64,000 bases of DNA, from assembly GCF_023078355.1 (NCBI RefSeq), contig NZ_CP095552.1, positions 930,001-994,000 on the forward strand. Reading direction: 5' to 3'. The notes under the pieces were generated by a model, which was not told where the DNA came from, did no database searches, and worked only from the letters and a program-made list of their open reading frames with translations. Each line of letters opens with the position of its first letter. Positions within the stretch are counted from its first letter, which is position 1. This DNA is from Gordonia hongkongensis. GTDB lineage: Bacteria > Actinomycetota > Actinomycetes > Mycobacteriales > Mycobacteriaceae. Of the stretch, positions 6,161 to 58,580 are shown in pieces. The position numbers were made by a program, and so were the translations under genes.

Positions 6161-6263
6161 TGCTCCCTGAGGTGCGAGCGAAGCGAGCCACGAAGGGCTC
6201 CGCAACCTGTCTCACCAGGCCCTTCGTGGCTCGTCGCTATCGCTCCTCACACCTCAGGGAGCA
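6161..6263. repeat. Dispersed palindromic repeat, copy B
   Basis: A complete 103-base copy with the same ends as copy A and the internal segment CACCAGGCCCTTCGTGGCTC. It contains the intact site TCGTCGCTATCGCTCC (6231-6246), which is exactly the sequence split by the IS110-family insertion in copy C. About 35 bases before the element (from near 6126) are also shared with copy D, so the repeat unit is longer than the hairpin. Confidence 0.85.
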
Positions 6264-33627: not shown

Positions 33628-35345
33628 GACGCACCGCCCGGCCCCCGCTCGACCCCCGGCTGCTGCGGTATTCGCCGACGACGCGGCGGTATGTCGGGGT
33701 CACCGCGGCGTTCGCGGTGGCCGAGGTGGTCGCGATCATCGTGGTGGCCGCGATGGTGGCGTCGATCGTCTCCGAACTGATCGTGTCGCCCGGGGCGCGG
33801 TCATTCGCCGCGCAGGGCGTTCACCTGACCGTGTTGGCCGCAGCACTGGCGGCCCGGGCCGCGATGGCATACGGACACGACCGATACGCGCACCGCGCCG
33901 CCGAGCGTGCGATCGCGGAGATGCGTGCCGAGGCCCTCGATGTCCTCACCGATCCGGCCCGCACGTCGCCGCGATCGCTGACGGCGATCCGCGAACACGC
34001 GAGCACCGTCCTCCTGCGCGGGCTGGACGCCCTCGGGCCGTATCTGTCGGGCTACCTACCGGCCCTGGTGGCCGCGGTGGTTCTGACGCCGACGGTCACG
34101 GTGGTCATCGCGTTCGCCGACTGGCCGTCGGCGCTCATCATCCTCGTCACCCTGCCCCTCATCCCGCTGTTCATGGTGCTCGTCGGACTGATGACGCGCG
34201 ATCGCACCACACGCAAGCTGGCGACGATGAGCCGGCTGAGTGCCCAGCTCCTCGACCTCATCGCCGGATTGCCGACGTTGCGCGCACTGAACCGGGCCGG
34301 CGCCCCGGCGGTTCGGGTCGGTGAACTCGGTGAAGCCCACCGCCGCAGCACGATGAGTTCGCTGCGGGTCGCGTTCCTGTCGGGCGCCGTCCTCGAGTTA
34401 CTGGCCACGCTCTGCGTCGCACTGGTCGCCGTGGGGATCGGTCTCCGTCTGGTCTATGGCGAGATGTCGTTGTACGCGGGCGTTTTCGCGTTGATCCTGG
34501 CGCCGGAGGCCTACCTGCCGCTGCGTCGGGTCGGCATGCAGTTCCACAATTCCACCGACGGCCTCACCGCAGCCGAGCAGGTCTTCGAGCTCATCACACC
34601 GCCGTCTGACGCGGCCGCGCCGTCCGCCACCGGGAATCGCGGGGTCAGCGTCGCAGGCGAACCGATCACCGTGCTCGACGTCGGCATCCACGGGCGCGAC
34701 GGATGGGCACCGGAGTGCCTCCGCACGACGATCGAACCCGGGGCGCTGACCGTGTTCGCCGGACCGAACGGGTCGGGCAAGTCGACGATGCTGGCGGCGA
34801 TCATGGGCCTGCTCGCTCCAGACGCGGGATCGGTGCTGATCGGGTCCACCCCGGTCGGTCAGGCCGATCCGGCGGCGCTGCACGAACAGATCGCCTGGCT
34901 GCCCCAGCAACCGGTGATCGTGCCGGGCACGGTCGCCGAGAACCTGGAGCTGTTCGGCGCGCTGGACCGCGACGCCTTCGAATCGGTTTCCGCGGCAACA
35001 GGCTTCGCCGCAGTCCTGGGTGAACTGCCGGGCCGGTTCGGCACGGTGCTGGGATCCGGCGGGGTCGGGCTCTCCGCGGGACAACGGCAACGCCTCGCCC
35101 TGACCCGAGTCCTCGCCTCGCCGGCGCCGCTGCTGCTGCTCGACGAACCGACCGCCCACCTCGACGAGGCGTCCGAGCGCGACGTGTTCGCCGCACTCCG
35201 CGATCGCGCTCGGGCCGGGGACACCGTCGTCGTGGTGGCGCACCGGGGCGTCGCCCGCGAGTACGCGGACCGGGTGGTGGACTTCCCGGCGGCCACCGGC
35301 GCAGCAGCCGCGGGCACGGCCGAGGAGGTGGACCATGCGCGGTGA
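33624..35345 (+). CDS. cydD: Cysteine/glutathione-type ABC transporter subunit CydD
   Basis: A 573-residue fused permease-ATPase. Six membrane helices are followed by an ATPase domain with Walker A FAGPNGSGKSTMLAAIMG, signature LSAGQRQRLALTRVL and Walker B LLLLDEPTAHLDEAS. With CydC it forms the heterodimeric exporter required for assembly of cytochrome bd; low-molecular-weight thiols or heme are the reported cargo. GTG 33624 overlaps the cydB stop. The cydC start lies 11 bases inside its 3' end, so the pair is coupled. A much longer frame upstream is only an extension through cydB. Confidence 0.94.
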   Translation: MRRTARPPLDPRLLRYSPTTRRYVGVTAAFAVAEVVAIIVVAAMVASIVSELIVSPGARSFAAQGVHLTVLAAALAARAAMAYGHDRYAHRAAERAIAEMRAEALDVLTDPARTSPRSLTAIREHASTVLLRGLDALGPYLSGYLPALVAAVVLTPTVTVVIAFADWPSALIILVTLPLIPLFMVLVGLMTRDRTTRKLATMSRLSAQLLDLIAGLPTLRALNRAGAPAVRVGELGEAHRRSTMSSLRVAFLSGAVLELLATLCVALVAVGIGLRLVYGEMSLYAGVFALILAPEAYLPLRRVGMQFHNSTDGLTAAEQVFELITPPSDAAAPSATGNRGVSVAGEPITVLDVGIHGRDGWAPECLRTTIEPGALTVFAGPNGSGKSTMLAAIMGLLAPDAGSVLIGSTPVGQADPAALHEQIAWLPQQPVIVPGTVAENLELFGALDRDAFESVSAATGFAAVLGELPGRFGTVLGSGGVGLSAGQRQRLALTRVLASPAPLLLLDEPTAHLDEASERDVFAALRDRARAGDTVVVVAHRGVAREYADRVVDFPAATGAAAAGTAEEVDHAR

Positions 35346-37047
35346 TCCGTTGATCCGGGCCCTGGGCTTCCTCGGCCTGCGCCGGCGTCCCGCGCTCACC
35401 GCGCTCGCGCTCGGTGTCGGCGGCTCGCTCTCGGCCCTCTTCCTGGCGGCGCTGTCGGCCTGGCTCATCACCCGTGCGTGGCAGATGCCGCCGGTGCTGT
35501 ACCTGTCGGTCGCGATCACCGCGGTCCGGGCGCTGGGTATCTCGCGCGGAGTGTTCCGCTATCTGGAACGGCTGGCGACCCACGATCTCGCCCTGCAGGC
35601 CATGGCCACCGCGCGGCAGCGCGTGTACACGGCGTTGGCGTCGGGCGCACCGGGTTACTCGGTCACGTTGCGGCGGAGTGAACTGCTCAACCGGACCGGT
35701 GACGACGTCGACGAGATCGGCAACGCCCTCATCCGCGGCCTCATCCCGATCGGCATCGGTGCCACGACATCGCTTGCGGCAGTGGTGGTGATGGCGCTGG
35801 TCTCGGTGCCCGCGGCCGTGGTGCTCGCACTCGCGCTGGCCGTCAGCGGCGGTGTGGCGCCGTGGCTGGCCGCACGCGGTGGTGCCCGGTCGATCCGCGA
35901 CGGCGCGCAGGCCGCGTCCGAGGCCACGGAGGCCGCCACGACGGCGCTGTGGCACGCGCCTGAACTCGTCGTCGCACGCAGACGCCATCGCGCGCTGGCA
36001 GCGGCCGCAGCGGCGGATCGCCGCCATCTCGACGCCACGGACCGGGGTATCCGGTGGCAGGCATCCGCCGCGGCGGCGACTCCGCTGGCACTGGGTGCGT
36101 CGCTGATCGCGGCATGCGTCATCGCCGTCGAATTGGCCTCGGCGACCTCGGGTTCGCTCGCCGGGGTGAGTTCGGGGGCTGGACTGACGCCGATGATCCT
36201 CGGTGTGCTCGTCCTGCTGCCGCTGTCGGCCTTCGAATCCACCGCGCCGCTCACCGAGGCCGGGCTGCAGATCGAGCGGAGCCGACAGAGTGCGGCCAGG
36301 CTCATGGCGCTGGTGGACGGGGCGCACGCCGACGGAACGGTCGATGTGACCGACGCCGAGGTGTATCGGTCTCCGGTGCGTCTGACGACCACGGGATTGC
36401 GCTGGGGACACCGAGATCGGGAGATCCTCGGTCCCGCGGCGGGCGTGGATCTCGACCTGCGACCTGGTTCGCGTCTGGTGGTCACCGGGCCGAGCGGGGC
36501 GGGGAAGTCGACGCTGCTCCTCACCCTCGCCGGTTTGTTGCCGCCGATGGCCGGGGACGTCGAGGCGGTCGACGTCGGCGACGGTTCGGTTGTCGGGTCA
36601 CGTTCGGCGGGATGCTATTTCGCCGAGGAGGCACACATCTTCTCGACGTCGGTCCGCGAGAACCTGCGCGTCGCCCGCGGTGACATCACCGACGAGGAGA
36701 TCGACACCGCGCTGGCGGCCGCCGGGCTGCAGCGCTGGGCCGCAGCACTTCCCGACGGTCTGGACACCGTCCTCACCGGTGGGGCCGATGCGATGAGCGG
36801 CGGGCAGCGGCGGCGACTGCTGCTCGCCCGCGCACTGCTGCACCCCGGGCGTGTCGTCCTGCTCGACGAACCGACCGAGCATATGGACGAGGCGGACTCC
36901 GACGAGCTGTTGCGGCGCCTCCTGGGGATCGAACGGGACCTGTTCGGGCCCGACCGGATCGTCGTCGTGGTGACCCACCAGCGCCCGGTCGACACTGGTG
37001 CGGTAGCGGTGCTCGAGTTGGCGGGCGGGCCCCTTCCTGCTCCCTGA
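35335..37047 (+). CDS. cydC: Cysteine/glutathione-type ABC transporter subunit CydC
   Basis: A 570-residue fused permease-ATPase partner of CydD. Walker A is VVTGPSGAGKSTLLLTLAGL, signature MSGGQRRRLLLARALL and Walker B VVLLDEPTEHMDEA, so both halves of the heterodimer retain intact ATP motifs. The last coding bases and the TGA stop (37045-37047) fall inside the first 10 bases of a dispersed palindromic repeat (37038 on), so the repeat provides the C-terminal Ala-Pro and stop. This suggests the repeat replaced the original gene end; the protein is still full length. Confidence 0.94.
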   Translation: MRGDPLIRALGFLGLRRRPALTALALGVGGSLSALFLAALSAWLITRAWQMPPVLYLSVAITAVRALGISRGVFRYLERLATHDLALQAMATARQRVYTALASGAPGYSVTLRRSELLNRTGDDVDEIGNALIRGLIPIGIGATTSLAAVVVMALVSVPAAVVLALALAVSGGVAPWLAARGGARSIRDGAQAASEATEAATTALWHAPELVVARRRHRALAAAAAADRRHLDATDRGIRWQASAAAATPLALGASLIAACVIAVELASATSGSLAGVSSGAGLTPMILGVLVLLPLSAFESTAPLTEAGLQIERSRQSAARLMALVDGAHADGTVDVTDAEVYRSPVRLTTTGLRWGHRDREILGPAAGVDLDLRPGSRLVVTGPSGAGKSTLLLTLAGLLPPMAGDVEAVDVGDGSVVGSRSAGCYFAEEAHIFSTSVRENLRVARGDITDEEIDTALAAAGLQRWAAALPDGLDTVLTGGADAMSGGQRRRLLLARALLHPGRVVLLDEPTEHMDEADSDELLRRLLGIERDLFGPDRIVVVVTHQRPVDTGAVAVLELAGGPLPAP

Positions 37048-37115
37048 GGTGCGAGCGAAGCGAGCCACGAAGGGCTCCGCAGCGTGCCTCACCAGGCCCT
37101 TCGTGGCTCGTCGCT
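37038..37115. repeat. Dispersed palindromic repeat, copy C, left part
   Basis: The first 78 bases of the repeat, from TGCTCCCTGAGGTGCGAGCG to GGCTCGTCGCT. It is interrupted at 37115 by the IS110-family element; the remaining 25 bases lie at 38625-38649. Joining the two parts reproduces the site seen intact in copy B. Confidence 0.88.
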
Positions 37116-37425
37116 GATATGTAGTGCTGCTCTGTCAAGTCCCATGGCGAAATTGCCTCCTTCTCAGGGGCTGTTGTGGGGTTGGCCACCCGCCGCGGTG
37201 TGTGGTGGTCGTTACTCGCGACGGTGTTGTCGGACTGATATACGCGGGTTGGTTACCGCTCAACGGTGTTCGACAGGAGATGAAAACGCTGGCCGACGGG
37301 TCTATGTAAACGTGCGTACCGTGCACCCAAAAGTGCTGGCGCACATAGCGACGCCGTGGATTCGTTCCCTGTTCACCACAGCGGGAGTCCCGCGACGGGT
37401 GGCCAAGATTGTGTGTCAGTGCTGG
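37116..37425 (-). ncRNA. Candidate bridge RNA region of the IS110-family element
   Basis: This non-coding end of the element shows no protein. An 11-base inverted repeat, TTGGCCACCCG at 37182 and CGGGTGGCCAA at 37396, could close a 225-base RNA structure. ATAGCGACG (37345-37353) is the exact complement of CGTCGCTAT, the target including the CT core and both flanks. CTGATAT (37235-37241) equals the element's left-end junction CT-GATAT, as a donor guide would. Read on the transposase strand, the target match comes before the donor match, the order known for bridge RNAs. Extent and transcription are inferred. Confidence 0.5.
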
Positions 37426-38511
37426 TTAGTCGTCGAGCACCGCCAGCGACCAGCACCAGCCGGCGAGCTCACGAGCGATCGCGGTGTTGGCCACGCAGGG
37501 ATGTTTGCTGCGGCGGTCGAATTGTTGCCAGCGCTTGTGTAGCCGACGATTGCCGGCATGGCCACGGGCGCGGGCAGCCGGTGTAGCAGCCTCCCACCGG
37601 CGGCGCATGGTCTGTCCGGGTGTGGCGTAGGGGCGTCGGTGTTGCCAGGCCGCCTCGACCAATAGCCGCCGCACGTGGGCGTTACCGGCCTTGGTGATCG
37701 ATCCCTGACTGCGGGTCCCGCCGGTCGAGTATTCCGAGGGCACCAACCCGGCGTAGGAGCCGATCGTGGCGCCACTAAACCGTGACCAGTCGCCGATCTC
37801 GACCGCCAAAGCGAACGCGGTCAGCGTCGACACGCCCCGCAGACACGACAGCCGGGTGACCACCGCCCGCCACGGATCGGTGGCCGCGGTCTGTTCGATC
37901 AGCTCATCGAGGCGGTCACGGCGGGCGGTCACGCTCAACACCGCGTCCAGGTCGTTGTCGAAGGCGGCTTGCAGCAGCGGCAGCTCGAAACGTTGACGCT
38001 GCAGCCACCGCTGATGAACACCGGTCCAGGGTTTCCCGCCGGAGTAGACGATCCCCTGTCGCAGAAGCAGTTTGGACAATCGATGCCGAGCGCGCATCAA
38101 GTCGCTGCGGGCGTCCTCGCGGGCGCGGACCAGATCCCGTGCGGCTTCGGTGCCCACCTCAGGAACACTGACCGCCACCACTTCGCCCAGGCGCAGCAAC
38201 TTCGCCAAGTGTGCAGCGTCTCGGGCATCGGTCTTGACGCGGTCCCCGGCTGGCCGCTGCAGCTTCGAGGGCGCGGCAACCACACACTCCATCCCGGCCG
38301 CCGTGATCGCCCGCGCCAATCCAAAGCCGGTCGGACCGGCCTCATAGGCCACCCGCACCGGCGGGGCCAGGCCTTGTAGCCAGCTGACGATGGTCGCCGC
38401 ATCAGGGACCAAGGTCTCCCGAATCACCTGCCCGGTGTCTTCATCGATGGCGTGAGCGACCACCGAGCGTGCGTGAACATCCAATCCGACACTTGTACCC
38501 TGAACAATCAC
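37426..38511 (-). CDS. IS110-family transposase (DEDD/serine recombinase)
   Basis: A 361-residue transposase. The RuvC-like N-terminus has the DEDD residues: GLDVHARSVVAHAIDE (D), YEAGPTGFGLA (E) and KTDARDAAHLAKLLRLG (D, D). The C-terminal Transposase_20 domain has LRGVSTLTAFALAVEIGDWS, YAGLVPSEYSTGG and RSQGSITKAGNAHVRRLLV, which includes the conserved catalytic Ser region. GTG at 38511 is chosen because AGGAGG lies six bases upstream; a TTG at 38532 would add seven residues before the ribosome site. The gene is intact, so the element may be active. Confidence 0.9.
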   Translation of the reverse strand: MIVQGTSVGLDVHARSVVAHAIDEDTGQVIRETLVPDAATIVSWLQGLAPPVRVAYEAGPTGFGLARAITAAGMECVVAAPSKLQRPAGDRVKTDARDAAHLAKLLRLGEVVAVSVPEVGTEAARDLVRAREDARSDLMRARHRLSKLLLRQGIVYSGGKPWTGVHQRWLQRQRFELPLLQAAFDNDLDAVLSVTARRDRLDELIEQTAATDPWRAVVTRLSCLRGVSTLTAFALAVEIGDWSRFSGATIGSYAGLVPSEYSTGGTRSQGSITKAGNAHVRRLLVEAAWQHRRPYATPGQTMRRRWEAATPAARARGHAGNRRLHKRWQQFDRRSKHPCVANTAIARELAGWCWSLAVLDD

Positions 38512-38624
38512 CGGAGGCCTCCTGATCTGCAATGTGGTGCTACCGCCGAGTGTGAACTCAGCAGCAGCAACCCACGATGTGTTTGCAGCTTGAGGCCTTC
38601 GGCCCCAAGGCCCTCATACCGTCT

Positions 38625-38649
38625 ATCGCTCCTCGCACCTCAGGGAGCA
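38625..38649. repeat. Dispersed palindromic repeat, copy C, right part
   Basis: The 25 bases ATCGCTCCTCGCACCTCAGG and AGCA-ending remainder complete the repeat cut by the insertion element. They end with the same CAGGGAGCA as the other copies. Confidence 0.85.
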
Positions 38650-58351: not shown

Positions 58352-58451
58352 TGCTCCCTGAGGTGCGAGCGAAGCGAGCCACGAAGGGCTTCGCAACGTG
58401 TCTCACCAGGCCCTTCGTGGCTCGTCGCTAACGCTCCTCACACCTCAGGGA
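58352..58451. repeat. Dispersed palindromic repeat, copy D
   Basis: A copy starting TGCTCCCTGAGGTGCGAGCG, with the same internal CACCAGGCCCTTCGTGGCTC, preceded by about 30 bases also found before copy B (including TCCACATCTC). Its right end runs into a tandem array of the right arm at 58431, and the first right arm ends CAGGGATCA rather than CAGGGAGCA. Confidence 0.85.
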
Positions 58452-58580
58452 TCAAAGGGGCAATCGCTGACGCTCCTCACACCTCAGGGATCAAAGGGGC
58501 AATCGCTGACGCTCCTCACACCTCAGGGAGCAAAGGGGCAGTCGCTAACGCTCCTCGCACCTCAGGGAGCAGAGGGAGCA
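58431..58580. repeat. 39-base tandem repeat, about 3.8 units
   Basis: Units start at 58431, 58470, 58509 and 58548, each beginning ACGCTCCTC and holding CACCTCAGGGA, followed by an AAAGGGGCA spacer. The first two are identical; the third and fourth carry a few changes, and the last is incomplete. The array is a multiplication of the right arm of the dispersed repeat. The region 58305-58621 between the convergent esterase and hydrolase genes holds nothing else. Confidence 0.9.

Follow-up and report, generated by a model that had tools for sequence, protein, structure and literature searches.

An IS110-family insertion element with a predicted 3' guide RNA at a fixed base of a dispersed palindromic repeat in Gordonia hongkongensis

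Introduction

The elements closest to the one described here belong to two groups of the IS110 superfamily of insertion sequences (IS). IS621 and ISCro4, of the IS110 group, use a bridge RNA located upstream of the transposase, and IS621-like elements have absent or short imperfect subterminal inverted repeats. Elements of the IS1111 group with a seekRNA (ISEc11, ISPa11, ISKpn4 and ISPst6) are described in the covered parts of PMC11187229 as having subterminal inverted repeats of 11-13 bp with 7/3-bp extensions, a transposase of 330-350 aa and a long downstream noncoding region in which the guide matching the top strand lies 5' of the guide matching the bottom strand. The same parts mention IS110-type elements with a 3' noncoding region and give no guide order for them. 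The covered parts of PMC11208160 served as a further source of criteria for the comparison.

We analysed a stretch of 64,000 nucleotides of Gordonia hongkongensis (contig NZ_CP095552.1, positions 930,001 to 994,000; hereafter the window), in which an IS110-family element interrupts a dispersed palindromic repeat. This element is very probably RNA-guided, with the target chosen by the two guides of an RNA encoded 3' of the transposase and the circular form joined at an AG core by the DEDD/Tnp recombinase. Comparison with relatives indicates that this short tail-encoded RNA probably specifies eight or nine DNA letters at the insertion site. A fixed point of a dispersed palindromic repeat is also used by ISPpu9, ISPpu10, ISPa11 and ISRm19, which target repetitive extragenic palindromic (REP) sequences (PMC1525189, parts covered), whereas their host phylum and repeat family differ from those found here.

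Insertion point and empty site

The element, its junctions and the repeat are placed in the window as follows.

37116-38624, minus strand: insertion element, 1,509 bp counting the core once (CT on the plus strand, AG on the transposase strand)
37114-37115: right-end core dinucleotide, read as CT on plus and AG on minus
38623-38624: left-end core dinucleotide, read as CT on plus and AG on minus
37114-37120, minus strand: right terminus ATATCAG, the donor half with the core
38615-38624, minus strand: left terminus AGACGGTATG, the donor half with the core
37038-37115: bases 1-78 of the 103-bp palindromic repeat that the element interrupts
38625-38649: last 25 bp of the interrupted repeat, the hairpin arm adjoining the target
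6161-6263, plus strand: copy B, an uninterrupted repeat with the same target (ATAGCGACG on the minus strand)

The 103-bp repeat is cut after base 78, and CT is present on the plus strand at both junctions with no longer duplication. In the orientation of the element the ends read AG-ACGGTATG... and ...ATATC-AG. The genome of the strain (5.4 Mb in two contigs) contains five copies of the element, four of them intact and one split by another insertion, and the insertion base was found to be identical in all five despite two diverged repeat subtypes. All four copies in a congener (G038) share this insertion base, again within this repeat family. A second congener (G055) carries at the orthologous locus the end of the ABC-transporter gene, an uninterrupted 103-bp repeat and the right flank in unbroken order, with 10 and 1 differences from the two joined halves. 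This locus is a natural empty site without duplication or deletion, and together with the nine copies it shows that the insertion point is not a matter of chance.

These results agree with most of what the initial annotation had proposed: an IS110-family element (the transposase contains the PF01548 RuvC-like domain and PF02371), a two-base core shared by the junctions, no classical target duplication, a defined insertion point in the repeat and a pre-insertion/post-insertion pair, the latter now provided by G055. Independent copies were observed to have identical ends at the same point of the same repeat family, and neither differing ends nor an empty site with a duplication or deletion was found. 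Two statements had to be revised. The repeat halves were said to rejoin exactly to copy B, which is true of the alignment, gapless and collinear, and not of the letters, because 3/78 and 1/25 bases differ. The core was likened to the CT of IS621, but this is a matter of strand: the transposase is encoded on the minus strand, and therefore the core of the element is AG.

The element is an IS110-family insertion sequence that has very probably been active recently. Three of the G038 copies were compared with those of the own genome and differ at 99-101 of 1,510 bases; the transposases of three copies are 97% identical to that of the window, and the fourth is altered, with 94% identity over residues 68-368 and 84% over residues 1-90. 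Within a genus search of 59 genomes, the own genome included, transposase matches (E <= 0.001, some of them weak) occur in 11 and repeat matches in 31. The orthologous locus was observed to hold a partial repeat in another congener (G021) and no match to the repeat in G038, so that the repeat has been gained or lost between species. A search of the own genome at E <= 0.001 revealed no Y1_Tnp gene, which would encode a REP-associated tyrosine transposase (RAYT).

Guide RNA region and its covariation with the target

The region downstream of the transposase is kept in relatives whose transposases are approximately 49-67% identical. It contains the following predicted parts.

37190-37376, minus strand: predicted guide RNA region with target- and donor-binding parts, 3' of the transposase (comparative)
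37345-37353, minus strand: right target guide (RTG) CGTCGCTAT, 9 nt complementary to the target ATAGCGACG
37300-37305, minus strand: left target guide (LTG) ATAGAC, of which AT and the core AG match the left target
37235-37241, minus strand: ATATCAG, the predicted left donor guide, with the same sequence as the element's right end

On the minus strand the RTG (5') precedes the LTG (3'), and the two guides of the element spell ATAGCGAC(G), which adjoins the hairpin of the repeat. The bases directly 5' of CTATG in the RNA were found to be the reverse complement of the core and the right flank. The ends of relatives were located by motifs independent of the guides (AGAC..TATG on the left, TATC[AG] after TTGA on the right). 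A total of 88 RNA-block records was collected, some being one copy under several locus names, and 68 unique records with 43 distinct guide combinations were left after duplicates and anchor-less records had been dropped. The first RNA-block pattern was scanned over 52 loci and gave none in 18, where L125 was regained with a looser pattern, L085, L086, L089, L127, L130 and L131 were read by hand, and the other eleven, some cut before the right end, were left out. Loci L152-L194 (43 in number) gave none in 15; L176 was read by hand and the rest, many of them fragments, were left out.

Of the 148 cells for positions +1 to +4, 135 show a match between the RTG and the right flank; 20,000 permutations gave 51.9 on average and never more than 75. 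Among the 37 guides with a known flank, 29, 37, 36, 33, 17 and 7 match at +1 to +6 respectively, where the corresponding permutation means are 11.1, 13.2, 16.3, 11.3, 9.6 and 7.3, and 26 of them match completely at +1 to +4. When the frame of the RTG is shifted by 1 to 4 bases, the matches fall to 1-23 of 37 per position. The second segment (..NNAGAC, the LTG) matches the left flank at -2 in 32/34 and at -1 in 34/34, the latter count being partly forced as the search anchor admitted T or C alone at -1. Two guide groups have C instead of T at -1, and in them the left guide reads CAG and the right guide CTG. One genome of another genus (G324) contains both kinds of element, some having C at -1 and others T; their RNAs are 87% identical and have switched accordingly (CCAG/CTG in L129, CTAG/CTA in L185). 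The permutations ignore kinship, and this concern is answered by the switch within G324 and by a thinned set of 13 RNAs less than 75% identical, which retains 49 of 52 matches.

The seven relatives read later gave a similar picture. The RTG is complete at +1 to +4 in 5/6 with enough flank, including the Coriobacteriaceae element L085; the guide of L086 matches all three bases before the contig ends, and that of L089, where the donor part is decayed, matches 2/4. The left guides of six of these match in 6/6 at -2 and in 5/6 at -1. Judged by complementarity, segments of the RNA directed at both target strands change with the target. The initial annotation had guessed at guidance by a bridge RNA as in IS621; this covariation supports the guidance itself, and the likeness ends at the layout, as the RNA lies downstream of the transposase and carries the target guides in reverse order. 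A conserved block, GAGCGGTA, was considered as the left target guide and dropped, since relatives keep it with different targets.

Predicted RNA structure and element ends

The target part is enclosed by a predicted outer stem, GGAGCG/CGCTCC, which takes changed forms in relatives, for example GGATCG/CGATCC and GGAGTG/CACTCC. In a free register 41 of the 52 RNAs have the whole stem, where 300 permutations gave 16.0 on average and at most 27, and RNAalifold predicted 21 pairs from 13 sequences, 9 of them with two-sided changes. Rfam contains no curated family for the region; three matches at E <= 1 were dismissed, being microRNA families far below their gathering scores.

Among the guide groups, 32 have an element that ends on the right in ACATATCAG and 7 have one that ends in CCATATCAG, where TATC was demanded by the search that collected these ends. 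The longest exact subterminal repeats were 4-8 bp in 31 distinct end pairs and 4 bp in the element of the window, scored as exact matches with gapped or mismatched repeats left out. A TTGAC(A) sequence (37133-37138, minus strand) lies approximately 18 nt inside the right end and is present in most rows of the alignment of relatives. It resembles a -35 box, and no -10 box was seen at normal spacing across the circle junction.

Target choice in the genome

The 9-mer ATAGCGACG occurs at 50 sites in the own genome and the same pattern read backwards at 15. This over-representation arises because the dispersed palindromic repeat carries the 9-mer beside its hairpin, and the simplest reading is therefore that the repeat is struck through its match to the guide and that the palindrome itself is not recognised. 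Five of the 50 sites belong to the RNA gene of the element itself, 29 fall in repeats without an insertion or in lone repeat arms, and 16 are elsewhere; ten repeat copies were assigned to their class by position and the remaining 35 sites were read. In 96 repeat arms where -2, -1 and the first core position were left free, these three bases were found to be ATA in 30, CAA in 30, TTA in 15 and others in 21. All five insertions of the own genome are at ATA (0.31^5, ~0.003), and the selection of a target among members of the repeat family thus follows the guide. With five insertions, the palindrome may still have an added role.

A perfect ATAGCGACG target also lies within the RNA gene (37345-37353), and the five element copies have no insertion there. 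The idea that A is avoided at -2 to spare this gene (A occurs in 1/43 guides) was weakened by L130, which has A at -2 in both guide and target.

Little shared flank beyond the bases read by the guide was observed between the copies of G853 (3 copies), G331 (4 copies, right side only) and G321 (2 copies). Palindromic landing sites were seen in two different repeat families in two genera, the second being that of G324.

Transposase

37426-38532, minus strand: transposase open reading frame (ORF), 368 aa from TTG, with DEDD_Tnp_IS110 and Transposase_20

The transposase is 368 aa long as an ORF and 361 aa as clustered in the protein database, with noncoding DNA of approximately 310 bp downstream (stop at 37426 to 37116) and approximately 90-110 bp upstream. 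Candidate DEDD residues are D18, E64 and D105, which are invariant in 11 aligned sequences, and D102, which is present in at least 90% of them; they were paired by eye, without a residue alignment, with the IS621 motif, whose catalytic residues are given in the covered parts of PMC11208158. At the serine motif (G--P----SG) the protein reads GLVPSEYSTG, with Thr in the place of serine. Of the 120 homologues listed, 108 have SG, 7 have TG (the protein of the window included) and 5 have no match to the motif. TG is described as an accepted variant in IS1111 transposases in the covered parts of PMC11187229.

When solved structures were searched with the single sequence, nothing beyond chance matches was obtained, and a profile search found ISCro4 and IS621. 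A homologue from Gordonia sp. DT219 was found at 73%. At least 7,998 of the 8,000 candidates scored have E <= 1e-20, a cut-off that may reach beyond the element's own group.

Discussion

We propose that the RNA would be transcribed and bound by the transposase. Its 5' guide, the RTG, would recognise the right half of the target by pairing over -1, the AG core and positions +1 to about +5. Its 3' guide, the LTG, would recognise the left half by pairing over -2, -1 and the core. The donor part with ATATCAG may pair with the element's own right end, and the DEDD/Tnp recombinase of a presumably active element would then join the circular form at the AG core with no target duplication, like IS621 and IS1111 elements.

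Several observations weigh against guidance by this RNA, besides the constraint on -1 in the search anchor. Eleven of the 37 guides lack the complete match at +1 to +4, the LTG fails to match at -3 (12/34) and farther out, and in G853 the three copies share one guide and yet their flanks differ at +1 and +4. In the own genome the 16 ATAGCGACG sites outside repeats are unoccupied, which chance alone could equally produce when there are five insertions. Flanking sequence that reaches past the bases read by the guides is common to two of the four copies in G270 (approximately 28 nt on the right), to three copies in G196 (6-11 nt) and to three copies in G277 (approximately 12 nt), and therefore repeated sequences may be involved there too. 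As for the RNA, only 7 of the 25 distinct arm pairs form the complete outer stem in a fixed register, where permutations gave 2.8 on average and at most 8, the covariation term of RNAalifold for the 13 sequences was approximately zero, the single-sequence fold was no more stable than shuffles (z -0.56), and in the donor part the left guide alone was predicted.

If the transposase itself or a DNA structure recognised the palindrome, and the RNA region were a conserved end structure with no guide role, one would expect the 9/9 insertions at the foot of the hairpin and also the situation in G324, where another dispersed palindrome (TGGCGCGGTTAAGTGCA...TGCACTCAACCGCGCCA and similar) has 4/4 copies (L129, L183, L184 and L185) at its foot. 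We consider this very improbable, because the covariation of guides and flanks extends across 37 guides and is lost on shifting the frame, because relatives with transposases 60-70% identical have unrelated sites, and because CAAG arms (30) are as common as ATAG arms (30), with TTAG in 15, yet CAAG and TTAG arms hold none of the five insertions. Even more improbable is that the shared insertion point reflects duplicated chromosomal segments containing element and repeat, so that the insertions were not independent. The four intact copies show 0-1 differences over 1,510 bp, a near identity that such duplications would produce, but the repeats around the copies fall into two diverged subtypes, the DNA farther out is not the same from copy to copy, and the orthologous locus in G055 is empty.

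The question of classification is less one-sided. A canonical IS1111-group element with merely shortened subterminal inverted repeats would account for the RNA downstream of the transposase, the top-strand match 5' of the bottom-strand match and the GL-P----S(T)G motif. We regard this as unlikely, though it deserves some weight, since the exact subterminal inverted repeats are 4-8 bp (4 bp here) against 11-13 bp with 7/3-bp extensions and the transposase is 368 aa against 330-350 aa (PMC11187229, parts covered). The RNA 3' of the transposase and target guides in the reverse of the IS621 order make the layout IS1111-like. From IS621 and ISCro4 the element differs in these two features, in the core AG in element orientation and in a left guide that reads just two bases outside the core, and it is like the IS110 group in its subterminal repeats. 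The IS110-type elements with a 3' noncoding region in the covered parts of PMC11187229 share both its IS110-like ends and its downstream noncoding region, and ISAar29, named in the covered parts of PMC11208160, could belong to the same group. By analogy, we take the RNA-guided element to be a variant of the bridge/seekRNA elements that probably works like IS621 and IS1111 elements.

More tentatively, and with the balance of our judgement close to even but slightly against, the element may represent a third layout of the IS110 superfamily, widespread in Actinomycetota, that combines IS110-type ends with a 3' RNA, guides in IS1111 order, 8-9 bases read and an overlap at -1, with some members settled on host palindromic repeats as a high-copy landing site. 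Since it mixes features used to separate IS110 from IS1111, the element has a bearing on how the RNA moved between element ends. Its group is large, and natural pre-insertion/post-insertion pairs together with a guide code from approximately 40 natural guides would make target choice in the group predictable from sequence alone. A compact recombinase with mapped guide positions is also a sensible candidate for work on programmable recombination. In the literature, searched through titles and abstract openings among the matches listed and mostly without subscription papers, we found neither this element, nor an IS110 element in Gordonia palindromic repeats, nor the guide order of the IS110-type group with a 3' noncoding region. 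The covered parts of PMC12306157, PMC12500396 and PMC13199778 contain nothing that alters the reading of the element.

Further observations on the repeat and the element copies

A link between this repeat and CGTC-tagged REPs (PMC3733652, parts covered) was rejected, because the tag there is the unpaired end of a hairpin unit and five bases separate CGTC from the hairpin arm here. The upstream ABC-transporter ORF (35335-37047, plus strand) has its stop codon within the first bases of the interrupted repeat (37038-37047). At 58352-58571 a full repeat copy is accompanied by an extra right arm approximately 100 bp further, and both have TTAG and not ATAG at the target point.

One of the G038 copies (L098) has an internal duplication of approximately 100 bp in its 3' region together with an altered transposase. 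The fifth copy of the own genome (L013, C1:2507900-2512000) has its transposase gene broken by another IS of approximately 1.5 kb, with the short direct repeat GGACCAGA on both sides. The transposase of this second IS may be of the IS256 type, which it resembles.

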